Below, in pieces: positions 333 through 14,536 of a DNA stretch of 64,000 nt. The stretch is from an uncultured Veillonellaceae bacterium. GTDB lineage: Bacteria; Bacillota; Negativicutes; Veillonellales; Dialisteraceae. The notes under the pieces are model-generated. The model was not told the origin of the DNA, did not search any database, and saw only the letters and a program-made list of their open reading frames with translations. The DNA lies in contig CASEBK010000020.1 in the NCBI GenBank assembly GCA_949286115.1, forward strand, positions 1 through 64,000, written 5' to 3'. The stretch's first letter is position 1; every line of letters starts with the position of its first letter. The position numbers were made by a program, and so were the translations under genes.

Positions 333-707
333 ATGAATATGAAAGAAGAGCCATTTGAAATATTCTTTTTTACGTTTGCGGATGGAGCATGCCCGGTGAA
401 ACAATTTCTTGATTCTCTGGAACTCAAGATGAAAGTCAGGGCATATCGGCTGCTTGAGATTCTATCAGAGTCGGGCAACGAACTGCGCGAACCGTATTCC
501 AAGCACTTGGATGATGGAATTTTTGAATTGCGCATCAAGGTGAGTACGGATATATCGAGGCTCCTGTATTTCTTTTATACAGGGCGGAAGATCATCGTGA
601 CAAATGGCTTTATCAAAAAGACACAGAAGACGCCTCGCAGAGAGATCGAAACGGCGAAGACGTATCGTGCCATGTATGAGGCGCGGCAGCAGAGAGGAAA
701 GGAGTGA
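333..707 (+). CDS. higB: HigB/RelE-superfamily toxin (phage Gp49-like)
   Basis: A 124-residue basic protein whose central pattern (YSKHLDDGIFELRIK, then SRLLYFF and a late FIKKTQKTP) matches the HigB/Gp49-like branch of the RelE/ParE toxin fold. Members cut mRNA, usually on the ribosome, and are neutralised by a partner antitoxin. An XRE-type gene follows at once, and toxin-first order is typical of HigBA. ATG 333 is used; ATG 339 is an alternative, and the ribosome binding site (GCAGAGG) is modest. It sits directly behind the rRNA operon. Family membership is fairly secure; activity is inferred. Confidence 0.82.
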   Translation: MNMKEEPFEIFFFTFADGACPVKQFLDSLELKMKVRAYRLLEILSESGNELREPYSKHLDDGIFELRIKVSTDISRLLYFFYTGRKIIVTNGFIKKTQKTPRREIETAKTYRAMYEARQQRGKE

Positions 708-1251: not shown

Positions 1252-3135
1252 ATGAAGGACGGGAAGGACATGACGCCCGGCGGGGGAAATATCCTCCGCT
1301 CGGAGAAGTACAGAAAGCGCGCGGAGGAAAAAGCGCGGCGAGAACAGGAAGCGGCGGAAGCGGCTCGGCAGGCGAAGGTGCGCACGGAGCCTCTCGCGGA
1401 CGCCGCCGACATCCGCAGAAACGCCGGTGTGATGGACAGCATCGCCGAGAGCGGCGCGCAGAATATCAACGTCAGTAAATTTCATGCGAGCCAGGGGCAT
1501 GGATTCGCCGCGGAGCAGGCCAATACCTTTCTGGACCGAATGCACGGGCTCGATGCGCACGTCGTAGGAAATGACAATGCGGCGAACGGTGCAGACCGTC
1601 TCGTGGACGGCCGGCTCATTCAGGTGAAATATTGCCAGAATGCGGCGGCCAGCGTGGACGCGGCATTTGAAAATCATGAGTATCGGTATTACGACGCTCA
1701 TGGCAAGCCCATGCAGATCGAGGTGCCCAGCGACCAGTACGAGCAGGCCGTAGCAAACATGCGGGAGCGCATCGCCAAAGGAGAAGTCAAAGGCGTGACC
1801 GACCCGAACGATGCGAAGAAACTCGTCAGAAAAGGGAGCGTCACCTATGAGACGGCGAAGCGGATCGCGCAGGCGGGCACCGTAGAGTCTCTCACCTTCG
1901 ATGCGGTGCAGGGGGCGGTCATCGCGACGGGCGTCTTTGGCATCTCCGGCACCATCACCTTTGCAAAAGCCCTCTGGGATGGAAAGAACATGGACGATGC
2001 GGTGGATGAAGGCCTCTGTACCGGCTTGTCTGCGGCCGGTACCTGCGAAGTCTCTTATATATTGACCCAGCAGCTTACGCGATGCGGTGCCAGTGCGCTT
2101 CTGGCGGCTCCTGCGAAGGGGGCGGTGAAACTGCTTCCTGTAAGCGTGCGAAAGGCACTGCTTGATGGATTGAAGAACGGTGCGCCTGCCTATGGGGCAG
2201 CCGCAGGAAATCTGGCGAAGACGGAAGGGACGAAAGTTACTGCCCAGACCGCGACGAATAATCTGGCGAAGCTCCTCCGGGGCAACGTCATCGCCGCGGC
2301 GGCGACTGTGCTCGTCCTGTCTGCCGGGGATATCGTGAACTGCTTCCGCGGGCGCATCTCCGGTAAGCAGCTCTTCAAGAATCTTACGGTAGCGACCGGT
2401 GCGGTCGGCGGCGGTGCAGGCGGCATGATGGCAGGCGCGCTGGCCGGGGGTGCCGTGGGCAGCCTCCTTGGTCCCGGAGGGACTGTGGCAGGCGCGAAGG
2501 TCGGCGCCTTCCTCGGCGGCATCGCAGGCGGCGCAGCCGGCGGGAACGCTGCGAAGGCCGCCATGGATGCGCTCATCGAAGACGACGCCGTCCAGCTCGT
2601 GCGCATCCTCGAGAGCCGCATCGTGCCACTGGCCCAGACGTACCTTCTGAATGAAGAGGAGCTCTCCATCGTCTTAGACGACCTGCAGCGGGTCCTGACG
2701 CAGGGGAAGCTCTACGAGATGTATGCCGCAGACGACCGGGAAGCCTTCGCGGACGAACTGCTCACGGCGCTCATCCGGCGGACCATCGGGTTCCGCACGC
2801 GGGTGCGCCTGCCCACGGGCGAAGCCGCCGTAGAGAGCCTTCTCCGCCTCATGGCGCGGAGCGAAGCGGGCCAGCCCCTCCTCGCGCCGCAGAAAAAAGC
2901 GGACCCCGAGGCCGTGGCCCGGGCCGTGCTGGGGCGGGACGTCTCCCGGCCTGCCGCGAAGAAAGCGTGGTACGTCACGAAGCAGATGCACAACGTGACG
3001 AAGCAGCAGGAACAGGACCTTTTCACGATGAAAGCGGCAGAAAAGGTCGCCGCCTCTGAAAACGAGGCCCGGCGGCAGCGCAAGGCCCATTTTGAAGAAA
3101 TGATTAAAAACTATACCGGTAATGGGGAAAATTAA
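1252..3135 (+). CDS. Large protein with nuclease-like N-terminal domain and glycine-zipper region
   Basis: 627 residues. I do not recognise a named family. Residues 1-45 are charged and helical. Residues 80-215 look like a compact domain containing E88, D115 and Q124-V-K126, with a GADRLVDGRLIQVKYC stretch that resembles the D...(E/Q)xK core of PD-(D/E)XK nucleases. Residues 215-290 and 345-360 are hydrophobic. Residues 383-431 form a long glycine zipper (GAVGGGAGG, then GAFLGGIAGGAAGG), typical of membrane-inserting or oligomerising segments. The C-terminus is charged and helical. The start has GGGAGG 5 nt upstream. The Sel1-repeat gene follows after 39 nt, so the two are probably co-transcribed. 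An effector or defence role is possible, but only a guess from architecture and location beside a toxin-antitoxin pair. Confidence 0.75.
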   Translation: MKDGKDMTPGGGNILRSEKYRKRAEEKARREQEAAEAARQAKVRTEPLADAADIRRNAGVMDSIAESGAQNINVSKFHASQGHGFAAEQANTFLDRMHGLDAHVVGNDNAANGADRLVDGRLIQVKYCQNAAASVDAAFENHEYRYYDAHGKPMQIEVPSDQYEQAVANMRERIAKGEVKGVTDPNDAKKLVRKGSVTYETAKRIAQAGTVESLTFDAVQGAVIATGVFGISGTITFAKALWDGKNMDDAVDEGLCTGLSAAGTCEVSYILTQQLTRCGASALLAAPAKGAVKLLPVSVRKALLDGLKNGAPAYGAAAGNLAKTEGTKVTAQTATNNLAKLLRGNVIAAAATVLVLSAGDIVNCFRGRISGKQLFKNLTVATGAVGGGAGGMMAGALAGGAVGSLLGPGGTVAGAKVGAFLGGIAGGAAGGNAAKAAMDALIEDDAVQLVRILESRIVPLAQTYLLNEEELSIVLDDLQRVLTQGKLYEMYAADDREAFADELLTALIRRTIGFRTRVRLPTGEAAVESLLRLMARSEAGQPLLAPQKKADPEAVARAVLGRDVSRPAAKKAWYVTKQMHNVTKQQEQDLFTMKAAEKVAASENEARRQRKAHFEEMIKNYTGNGEN

Positions 3136-3174
3136 ATTTTCTCGTGCCATATACAAATTACAAAGGAGGATATC

Positions 3175-5298
3175 ATGGACAAAGAATTATCATTGGTGGA
3201 AACGGCTGTGCTCACGCCGGACGAAAAGGTTGAGCTGGGTGAGGAACTGGACCGCATCATCGAAGCGCACAAAGCGAATCGAAAAGAGATCAATCGCCTC
3301 GTCTTCGAGAGCGTCGCCGCTATGACCGAGGCGGACGAAGCAGGACAGAAACTTGCCAGCAAGGGATTTTGGAAACGTATCGGCGGCAGCATCACCGGAA
3401 GCAATAAAAAATTGCAGGACAAGATCAATGCGAGCCGCGCCGCCGCGCAGTACGCTTCCCAGCAGACCCTCCAGAAATTGGCTGAGCAGAATCTCCTCAC
3501 CTTCGACCTGCTCGCTGCGGTGAACAACAAACTGAACGCCTCCATGAAGCTCGTGGGGACGGAGTTCACGAAGCTCTACACGGGACTTGAGAAATTCTTC
3601 CAGTACAACCAGAGCCAGCTCGTGCGCATGGAACTTCGCCTGGCGAAAGTCGAGAAGAACGTGAATCTCCTGAATTGGCAGAACTCCATCGAATACCTCG
3701 AATGGAATGGGGACCTCTACCCTGACCTGGACGACGCAGCAAAGATCGTCTGCCTCGCTCGGGATTTCTGCGATATCACGAAGGGCGAATACGGCACCTC
3801 CGACCTGCTTCTTCTGAAAGCATCCATGGATGCCATTGGCATCTCTCCCAGAGCGCAGGTCAACTACGGGCAAGTGCTTGAAGAAATTGCCGAAAATGAC
3901 GCGCTTCAAGAAAAGCTCTTTGGTGGGAAATCTATCCGACCTATCGCCGACCCGGGCAGCCTCATCGCCATGAGCGGCATTCAGAAATTGAATGCATTCC
4001 GTCATGAAGACAAATATCTCGTGGATACCGTGGCAGGCTATGCGGCTTCCTGTGGCGCGAGCGTCTCCGAAGAGCAGATAGGCCGTGACCTGACAAAAGC
4101 CTATCTCAAGAACAATGCCGGGGCGGACGTGGATATGGATGTAGACAGCTTCGATATGGTGCTTGACTTGATCTATGGCGTGCAGCAGGCCGACGCAGAA
4201 GGGCTGCTCCTTGCGCCGGGAGAAACGGCGGAGACGAAGGCAGAGGAAGTTGCGGTACAGCCGGAAGAGGAAACAAAGCCTGCCGTGCCGAAGAAAGATG
4301 AAAAACTTGTCGAGGCGGAAAAGCTTTTCTGGGCCTACAAGCTGCCGGAGGCATATCAGAAATTCAAAGAACTGGCGGAAGCAGGCAATGGACGTGCTAT
4401 GTACTACCTCGGCTTGTATGCAGCGGAAGGATATGCCCCCGTTGCAAATGATGAAAAAGCGGCCCGTGAATGGTGGGAGAAAGGGGCCAATGCGGGAGAT
4501 GCTCTTGCCGCTGTGCGTTATGCGGCTGTCCTGCCAAAGACCTCAAAGAAGCGCAAGACCCTCCTTGAGACATACGTCCCGCAGGCGCTCGAAGCAGCGG
4601 AAGCGGATGACCCCACAGCACAGTATGAAGCGGCTCAGATGTGTCGAGACGGCTTCGGCACGGAACAGGACTTCTCCAAGAGGGCAGAGTATCTCTCCGC
4701 GGCGGCTGAAGAAGGATTCTGGCTGGCAGAATGTGAGTTGGGGAAATGCTATGAAGAAGGAACAGGTGTAGAGCAGGATGCAGAAGCGGCCGTCGAATGG
4801 TATACCCCGGCGGCGGAAGCAGGCTATGCGGAAGCACAGTGGTGCCTCGGTATGTGCTCTTATGAAGGGAAAGGTACTAATCAGAATTTTGAAGAGGCAC
4901 TTTCCTGGTTCCACAAGGCGGCCGATCAAAATTATGCACCGGCGCAGAAATCCATTGGTGATTGCTATATGAATGGCTATGGCGTTGATCAAAATGAATA
5001 TGATGCAATTGATTGGTATGAAAAATCCGCGAATCAAGGATATGTTGAATCACAACTATACTTGGGGGATTATTATAAAGATTACGATAGAGGCGATGAT
5101 GAGTATCAGGCTGTAGAATGGTATAAAAAGGCGGCCAATCAGGGGAACGCTTATGCACAGTATATGCTTGGTTATTGTTATTATCAGGGAGAAGGTGTGG
5201 ATGAAGATGATAACGATATAGCCAAAGCTTGGCTGGAAAAATCAGCAGCTCAGGGATATGAGGATGCAAAGAAAGCCTTGGAAAATTGGGCATTCTGA
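3175..5298 (+). CDS. Sel1-repeat protein with helical N-terminal domain
   Basis: 707 residues. Residues 1-170 are predicted helical or coiled-coil, with a conserved-looking core (AQYASQQTLQKLAEQN and LLAAVNNKLN). Residues 170-345 form a second domain I cannot assign. From about residue 380 to the end there are seven or eight Sel1/TPR-like repeats of about 36 residues (for example AEAGYAEAQWCLGMCSYEGKG), which usually bind proteins. There is no signal peptide, so it is probably cytoplasmic. AAAGGAGG precedes the ATG. The last third is much richer in A+T than the rest, suggesting repeat gain or recombination. It is probably the partner of the preceding nuclease-like protein. The repeat assignment is firm; the function is unknown. 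Confidence 0.82.
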   Translation: MDKELSLVETAVLTPDEKVELGEELDRIIEAHKANRKEINRLVFESVAAMTEADEAGQKLASKGFWKRIGGSITGSNKKLQDKINASRAAAQYASQQTLQKLAEQNLLTFDLLAAVNNKLNASMKLVGTEFTKLYTGLEKFFQYNQSQLVRMELRLAKVEKNVNLLNWQNSIEYLEWNGDLYPDLDDAAKIVCLARDFCDITKGEYGTSDLLLLKASMDAIGISPRAQVNYGQVLEEIAENDALQEKLFGGKSIRPIADPGSLIAMSGIQKLNAFRHEDKYLVDTVAGYAASCGASVSEEQIGRDLTKAYLKNNAGADVDMDVDSFDMVLDLIYGVQQADAEGLLLAPGETAETKAEEVAVQPEEETKPAVPKKDEKLVEAEKLFWAYKLPEAYQKFKELAEAGNGRAMYYLGLYAAEGYAPVANDEKAAREWWEKGANAGDALAAVRYAAVLPKTSKKRKTLLETYVPQALEAAEADDPTAQYEAAQMCRDGFGTEQDFSKRAEYLSAAAEEGFWLAECELGKCYEEGTGVEQDAEAAVEWYTPAAEAGYAEAQWCLGMCSYEGKGTNQNFEEALSWFHKAADQNYAPAQKSIGDCYMNGYGVDQNEYDAIDWYEKSANQGYVESQLYLGDYYKDYDRGDDEYQAVEWYKKAANQGNAYAQYMLGYCYYQGEGVDEDDNDIAKAWLEKSAAQGYEDAKKALENWAF

Positions 5299-5340
5299 AC
5301 GGAATTGAATAGAGTTAATTTGTTGTTATCAAACATAAAA

Positions 5341-5370
5341 AAGGAACCGACGATGGTATCGGTTCCTTTT
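5341..5370 (+). terminator. Terminator after the Sel1 gene
   Basis: AAGGAACCGA pairs with TCGGTTCCTT around an 8-nt loop, followed by TT and a T-rich tract. Confidence 0.88.
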
Positions 5371-5496: not shown

Positions 5497-5961
5497 GTGA
5501 CCGGCACGATGGAAGCGGACGAAAAGGGGCCGTACCTTAAGATGGAACGGGTGAACTACCGTGACCCGGACCCTCTGGCCGAATACGGAGCGGCGAAATC
5601 CTCCGCAGCGGCTGCGGCGATATCTGCGGAGGAAGGCACAGCAGACAATACATATGCTGTCTCGGAAGACCCAAATTATTTCACAAGCGGCGCGAAGGCG
5701 ATCGATAAGACGGCCTATACGCCGGCGCAGGCAAAAGATCTCGCCATCATGGACGAGGGAGCGCGAGCGGCTGTGACGGGACGGGCGATCCGTGAGACCG
5801 CGCGGGGGCTGCTCTTCTGGGATGAGGAAAATGCTCCGGTGGATACGGTGATGAATGGTGTCTATGCGCCACTCGGGCAGCGCTGCACGATTTACGGCAC
5901 AGTGCATCACGAGGAGGGCACGATGGTGCTCTCCGTAGACCGGGTGGAAAGCGTGGCGTAA
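5497..5961 (+). CDS. Hypothetical protein, probably 5'-truncated
   Basis: An open frame of 154 codons with normal codon use, followed by a terminator. No ribosome binding site precedes GTG 5497 or ATG 5509, and the frame stays open back to 5404 without a better start. The first residues (VTGTMEADEKGPYLKM) read like the middle of a beta-rich, OB-like domain, and the end (YGTVHHEEGTMVLSVDRVE) looks like a second such unit. I therefore think the 5' part of a longer, perhaps exported, gene has been lost. No function is assigned. The 5299-5496 gap holds only a terminator and this degenerate upstream reading frame. Confidence 0.45.
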   Translation: MTGTMEADEKGPYLKMERVNYRDPDPLAEYGAAKSSAAAAAISAEEGTADNTYAVSEDPNYFTSGAKAIDKTAYTPAQAKDLAIMDEGARAAVTGRAIRETARGLLFWDEENAPVDTVMNGVYAPLGQRCTIYGTVHHEEGTMVLSVDRVESVA

Positions 5962-14431: not shown

Positions 14432-14439
14432 GAGGTCGA

Positions 14440-14521
14440 TGCTGGGGGAGCCGAAGGGCTGAGAGGCGGAGACCGACCCTTTGAACTTGATGCAGTTCGT
14501 ACTGCCGTAAGGAAGCAGGAG
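14440..14521 (+). promoter_or_regulatory. TPP riboswitch (THI element)
   Basis: The conserved CTGAGAGG (14459-14466), the ACCCTTTGAACTTGAT joining region (14475-14490) and the GTAAGGAAGCA 3' block (14507-14517) identify a thiamine pyrophosphate aptamer. It precedes thiC, which it should repress when TPP is abundant, through the terminator that follows. Confidence 0.96.
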
Positions 14522-14536
14522 CATGACCGCTCATCC

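Follow-up and report, generated by a model that had tools for sequence, protein, structure and literature searches.

P1 and P2 are two adjacent genes near the start of a 64,000-nucleotide stretch of DNA from an uncultured Veillonellaceae bacterium (contig CASEBK010000020.1, positions 1 to 64,000; this whole stretch is referred to as the window). Judging from its predicted fold and conserved residues, P1 very probably belongs to the PD-(D/E)XK type and carries a membrane-type tail; P2 is a Sel1-repeat protein with a conserved N-terminus. The pattern of their occurrence argues strongly that the two form a functional pair in Negativicutes. On the strength of the associations described below, we tentatively propose that P1 is a nuclease effector associated with the membrane and regulated by P2, and that the pair probably serves in defence.

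Both open reading frames (ORFs) are conserved across species, which indicates that P1 and P2 are genuine genes and not chance frames. Their coordinates and the gap of 39 nucleotides (nt) between them are exactly those given in an initial annotation of the locus, and the common promoter and the terminator that it had claimed correspond to a predicted sigma-70-like site and a predicted hairpin. The features of the two genes are as follows.

1190-1219, + strand: predicted sigma-70-like promoter site for P1-P2, TTGACA-18-CATAAT (consensus scan, 11/12 matches)
1252-3135, + strand: P1, ORF of 627 amino acids (aa); predicted PD-(D/E)XK domain, hydrophobic helices and glycine zipper (homologues, AlphaFold2)
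1447-1917, + strand: P1 residues 66-222, predicted PD-(D/E)XK nuclease-like domain (AlphaFold2, VIA-align, invariant residues)
1513-1515, + strand: codon of E88, in the helix ahead of the core (invariant in alignments A1, A4, A6)
1594-1596, + strand: codon of D115 (invariant in A1, A4, A6)
1621-1629, + strand: codons of Q124-V125-K126, the QxK motif (Q and K invariant in A1, A4, A6)
1882-2082, + strand: P1 residues 211-277, two long predicted helices (AlphaFold2)
2242-2346, + strand: P1 residues 331-365, most hydrophobic helix and candidate membrane segment (Kyte-Doolittle; AlphaFold2 helix)
2377-2571, + strand: P1 residues 376-440, glycine-zipper region (composition; AlphaFold2)
3175-5298, + strand: P2, ORF of 707 aa, partner of P1
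3175-4230, + strand: P2 residues 1-352, conserved N-terminal region of no named family (alignments A2, A5)
4300-5295, + strand: Sel1-repeat region of P2, limits approximate (Pfam PF08238)
5339-5370, + strand: predicted terminator hairpin with T-tail, 3' of P2 (predicted on the - strand too)

The nuclease-like domain of P1

None of the Pfam and NCBIfam models matches P1, and a sequence search of solved structures (PDB) with P1 and P1 profiles returned nothing meaningful. The AlphaFold2 model of the whole protein has a mean pLDDT of 70.8; within residues 121-200, means taken over ten residues lie at 86-96. In a fold search with this model the helices dominate and no family is resolved, and a model of the domain by itself was therefore needed. 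The domain-only model (residues 66-222; pLDDT 81.9, pTM 0.78) presents the order helix (E88)-strand-strand (D115)-strand (QxK)-helix-strand-helix, which is that of the alpha-beta-beta-beta-alpha-beta core of PD-(D/E)XK proteins. VIA-align places CdiA-CT (4g6v, Z 5.5), YaeQ (5.2), AF1548 (4.9) and MspJI (4.7) at the top, followed by Hjc (4.5) and VRR_NUC (4.4), and then by EcoT38I, NucS, LmuA and others. The list consists almost wholly of members of the PD-(D/E)XK superfamily. In Foldseek, MspJI, PspGI, I-Ssp6803I, EcoT38I and Hjc stand near the top, none of them with E<0.001.

A plausible D115...Q124-x-K126 core had been proposed for this domain. These residues are indeed present, and they are invariant among the aligned P1 homologues together with E88, which completes the motif. 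The consistency of the structural list, the order of the strands and the four invariant residues make the assignment to PD-(D/E)XK likely, in agreement with the nuclease-like fold that was anticipated. Nucleases of this superfamily with QxK, such as MspJI, share with P1 the predicted fold order and the D...QxK arrangement. P1 differs from the MspJI type in that it has no sequence match in the PDB, no DNA-recognition domain is seen in it, and membrane-type helices are attached.

The membrane-type tail of P1

The two long helices of residues 211-277 are followed by the most hydrophobic helix, in which the Kyte-Doolittle mean over 19 residues reaches up to 1.89, and by a region in which 21 Gly and 18 Ala are found among 65 residues. 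The latter is modelled as two helices, 371-406 and 408-441. The hydrophobic segments and the glycine zipper of the initial annotation are thus recovered, and the tail may insert into a membrane. A match of P1 to tape-measure proteins (PHROG 167, 1.9e-6) was rejected and ascribed to glycine-rich hydrophobic composition.

The partner protein P2

The C-terminal half of P2 contains seven Sel1 matches (PF08238, E=1.4e-45) and qualifies as a tandem-repeat region, as claimed earlier. The claimed conservation of the N-terminus is likewise borne out by the alignments. For this N-terminal region of the window protein no Pfam match was obtained, and the search of solved structures by sequence gave nothing meaningful. 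Kinship with RdcB/YjcZ was considered and rejected; it amounted to one weak Pfam match (0.0057, in one homologue) and failed in profile comparison. P2 resembles other Sel1-repeat proteins in its C-terminal half and differs from them in its conserved N-terminus without a named family and in its tie to P1 in Negativicutes. Relatives of P2 were not found in viral contigs. We also note that the end of P2 (4899-5298) has 41% G+C, compared with 61% across most of the window, a hint of a foreign or recombined Sel1 tail.

Linkage of P1 and P2 in Negativicutes

The pairing was surveyed in 380 Negativicutes genomes. P1 is present in 31 and P2 in 19 of these, and both are present in 15, where 1.55 would be expected (Fisher p 3.4e-15, a value that ignores shared ancestry). 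The genes are adjacent, with P1 first, in 14 of the 15 genomes that have both, and overlaps of 4-11 nt are frequent. The two-gene unit proposed from the window alone thus recurs, with its gene order kept, in 14 of the 19 genomes with P2. Of the 31 genomes with P1, 16 lack P2, and of the 19 with P2, four lack P1 (G001, G072, G537 and G747). The label of a type II toxin-antitoxin pair, which implies that the partners are always found together, was rejected on these counts.

On the P1 tree the P2-linked loci fall into two groups with 4 label changes, and none of 500 shuffles gave a number as low; the P1-P2 link may therefore have arisen or moved more than once. The genome of the window itself holds a second P1-P2 copy on another contig (G000:C8:4850-7630, L072), in which P1 is 85% identical. 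This copy is damaged: the reading frame of P1 is broken, and P2 contains a stop. The dN/dS between the two P1 copies is ~0.2. In a further genome (G712, L157:7097-12761), a single P1 gene is followed by two different P2-type genes.

Distribution of P1 and its relation to YeeR

Homologues of P1, annotated as 'hypothetical protein' or YeeR, are found in Negativicutes, Streptococcus, Monoglobus, an Oscillospirales phage and viral contigs, and on plasmids of Selenomonas, Lactococcus and Klebsiella. The presence of P1 is patchy (3/398 genomes of the phylum and 31/380 of the class) and sporadic even among close relatives.

Full-length YeeR of Escherichia coli is 36% identical to P1 over P1 residues 52-542 (BLASTP E=1e-62), and the homology takes in the nuclease-like domain as well as the zipper. 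In contrast to P1, YeeR carries an extra N-terminal part with membrane and cysteine-rich segments, has no adjoining Sel1 partner, and is encoded in an operon with flu and irmA. Counting places that cover at least 80% of the query, the full-length YeeR core is present in 2125 of 5426 complete E. coli genomes (~39%), and homologues of P1 also occur in CP4-44-like elements of this species. The yeeR gene of strain K-12 (NC_000913.3:2074779-2076311; L047:9780-11312) is truncated; it keeps the nuclease-like domain, ends right after it and has lost the zipper. The truncation of yeeR in this strain has also been noted in print (PMC6480617). Co-transcription of yeeR with flu (Ag43) and irmA has been reported in the same work (PMC6480617). 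No functional reports on yeeR, on PDC-M09 (see below), or on a glycine zipper with Sel1 or defence were found in the literature.

Exchange of modules and gene neighbours

The core of P1 is joined to different modules in its homologues. A domain like the N-terminus of BnzA, a component of the Bunzi system, is fused N-terminally in one homologue (L048, E=7.5e-23) and C-terminally in another (L055, 2.2e-8); a Lactococcus plasmid encodes it in the next ORF (9.7e-14), and a fourth locus in the ORF just upstream (L066, 7.8e-5). HPr forms the N-terminus of a homologue in genome G629 (PF00381, 1.8e-30; L150:8280-9962, - strand), and acyl carrier protein that of a homologue in genome G698 (PF00550, 3.9e-15; L156:3232-4947, - strand). 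Each of these two genomes also holds a free-standing copy of the fused carrier. Zinc ribbons are present at either end of P1 homologues, with matches below the cut-offs of Pfam, and in other homologues the core is joined to membrane segments.

Two loci place P1 homologues in a defence-type context. In an enterobacterial viral contig (L051:231-5993), a WYL-type regulator, PDC-M09A, PDC-M09B and full-length YeeR follow one another; this PDC-M09B has a 99% match in 5 of 5426 E. coli genomes. The other locus (L063:76-7397) brings together IetA, IetS, a helix-turn-helix (HTH) protein of HTH-zipper type, a P1 homologue, PDC-S11 and, further on, an integrase-like gene. We assigned the WYL and integrase labels ourselves by reading the sequences. 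The nearest ORFs of 25 P1 loci (134 proteins) were also compared with PADLOC alongside 132 control ORFs. Among the top 25 families listed, restriction of types IIG, III and IV, AbiLi and others were obtained for the P1 neighbours, and types IIG, I and others for the controls.

Comparison with named systems

PDC-M09, a PADLOC candidate, resembles P1-P2 as a two-gene unit in which a nuclease-like domain is followed by a hydrophobic region. P1 residues 79-217 match PDC-M09B weakly (E=3.4e-5; hhalign E=6.5e-4, with D and QxK aligned). The two are nevertheless too distant for one family, and PDC-M09A is glycine-rich and unrelated to P2, so that P2 was rejected as its homologue. As the PDC-M09B match is limited to these residues and the neighbour P2 is not related to PDC-M09A, P1-P2 was not classified as PDC-M09.

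The connection to Bunzi runs via the four homologues fused to or beside a BnzA-like domain. The window pair itself differs in being devoid of this domain, and it was not classified as Bunzi, as no match to BnzA or BnzB (TerB) was seen at E up to 1.

Proposed mechanism and alternative explanations

A role in defence is, in our tentative judgement, the best single explanation for P1-P2. It draws on the predicted nuclease fold, the P1-P2 linkage, the exchange of modules, the contexts of L051 and L063, the weak PDC-M09B match and the dN/dS of P1. An abortive-infection effector, as suggested in the initial annotation, is possible; homologues and relatives joined to BnzA-type domains, PDC-M09 genes, WYL-type regulators or IetAS lend this indirect support. 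In the proposed mechanism, P1 would consist of a nuclease domain of PD-(D/E)XK type (E88, D115, Q124-x-K126) held on a hydrophobic glycine-zipper anchor, and P2, encoded on the same transcript, would be its dedicated partner. The N-terminus of P2 would hold or restrain P1, while its Sel1 repeats would bind proteins and so read a trigger, for which phage infection or another entry of DNA is the most plausible candidate. Once triggered, P1 would cleave nucleic acid at the membrane, whether of the invader or of the host (abortive infection). P1 homologues may do the same job with other modules, namely the BnzA-like domain, the membrane and cysteine-rich N-terminus of YeeR, HPr, acyl carrier protein and zinc ribbons. 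What the computation shows are the genes, their conservation, the motif, the predicted fold, the linkage of P1 with P2 and the exchange of modules; catalysis, insertion into the membrane, binding between P1 and P2, the trigger and the role in defence are inferred. The fusions with HPr and acyl carrier protein raise the possibility that carrier proteins of metabolism are used as sensors or baits. The P1 core also provides a testable role for yeeR, a function-unknown gene common in E. coli, because the predicted nuclease core and the modules shared with Bunzi link the family. It is possible, if doubtful, that P1 and its relatives, with full-length YeeR included, make up a hitherto undescribed class of defence effectors, in which a membrane-bound PD-(D/E)XK protein is combined with sensor modules that can be exchanged.

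Several observations weigh against a nuclease effector serving in defence. In two genomes (G636 and G646), P1 starts within the domain and has neither E88 nor D115, and P2 is still adjacent. A search for the missing 5' part upstream, in all three frames, revealed no remnant. Both loci are fast-evolving, with long branches on the P1 tree; either they are in decay, or the pair does not need catalysis in order to act. The individual structural matches are weak, VIA-align giving a Z of at most 5.5, and just one segment of P1 clears a plain hydropathy cut-off. The PADLOC comparison, crude as it is, shows no clear excess of defence genes at P1 loci over controls, and many P1 homologues are solitary between housekeeping genes. 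PDC-M09 and PDC-S11 are themselves just candidate defence systems.

The two loci without E88 and D115 bear directly on an alternative in which the membrane part is the effector: the PD-(D/E)XK domain would sense or bind nucleic acid, this binding would trigger the glycine zipper to damage the inner membrane, and P2 would act as a brake. The glycine-zipper helices make up a large conserved part of P1, and it is the zipper side and P2 that are retained in G636 and G646. We nevertheless regard this arrangement as unlikely. The E, D, Q and K residues are invariant in the aligned full-length homologues, which suggests catalysis, and the two fast-evolving loci may be decaying.

General phage defence by P1-P2 may also be contrasted with maintenance or protection of a mobile element, through addiction, superinfection exclusion or exclusion of incoming conjugative DNA. 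This would agree with the patchy distribution and with homologues on plasmids, in phage, in viral contigs and in CP4-44-like elements. However, many chromosomal copies are solitary between housekeeping genes, and either of P1 and P2 can be found alone, in contrast to the genes of an obligate addiction pair. We hold such a role to be slightly less likely than a zipper effector.

Somewhat less probable again is a host function in the envelope or in nucleic-acid metabolism that is unrelated to foreign DNA, for instance in stress response or adhesion. The reported co-transcription of flu, yeeR and irmA in E. coli (PMC6480617) would fit such a function, and the fusions to HPr and acyl carrier protein hint at metabolic cues. 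The sporadic presence of P1 among close relatives, the loss of the C-terminal half of YeeR in K-12, and the regulator and defence-type partners in some loci speak against it.

Finally, the 'contact-type effector' of the initial annotation, in which the pair would be a toxin passed to other cells on contact and its immunity protein, is very improbable: the best structural match is to a CdiA-CT toxin and P2 lacks P1 beside it in four genomes, in the manner of orphan immunity genes, but the fold is common to many non-toxins, homologues without P2 are common, the N-terminus of P1 is charged and not of signal-peptide type, and a secretion or delivery domain was sought in P1 and not found.

Surroundings of the pair in the window

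The pair lies behind a 5S rRNA gene and beside a toxin-antitoxin pair, in line with the initial description.

6-122: 5S rRNA gene, at the start of the window
333-707: Gp49/HigB-type toxin (PF05973)
704-1006: HTH antitoxin; 4-nt overlap with the toxin ORF, an ordinary pair
1127-1149: predicted terminator hairpin between the toxin-antitoxin pair and the P1 promoter site

The toxin-antitoxin genes form an ORF pair of their own that looks separate and was rejected as part of the P1-P2 unit, because a predicted terminator intervenes and the promoter site of P1 comes after it. Toxin-antitoxin genes of this kind were not noticed next to homologous loci, which were not checked systematically. The 'island' of the initial annotation did not find support: the flanks are non-syntenic in two congeners, in which no empty site could be defined, and direct repeats of at least 13 nt shared by the two flanks were not found. 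Between P2 and the next genes, a 154-aa ORF (5497-5961) with no family match may be a gene remnant. Farther along the window, a thiamine pyrophosphate (TPP) riboswitch is present at 14434-14530 (RF00059, 56.3 bits).

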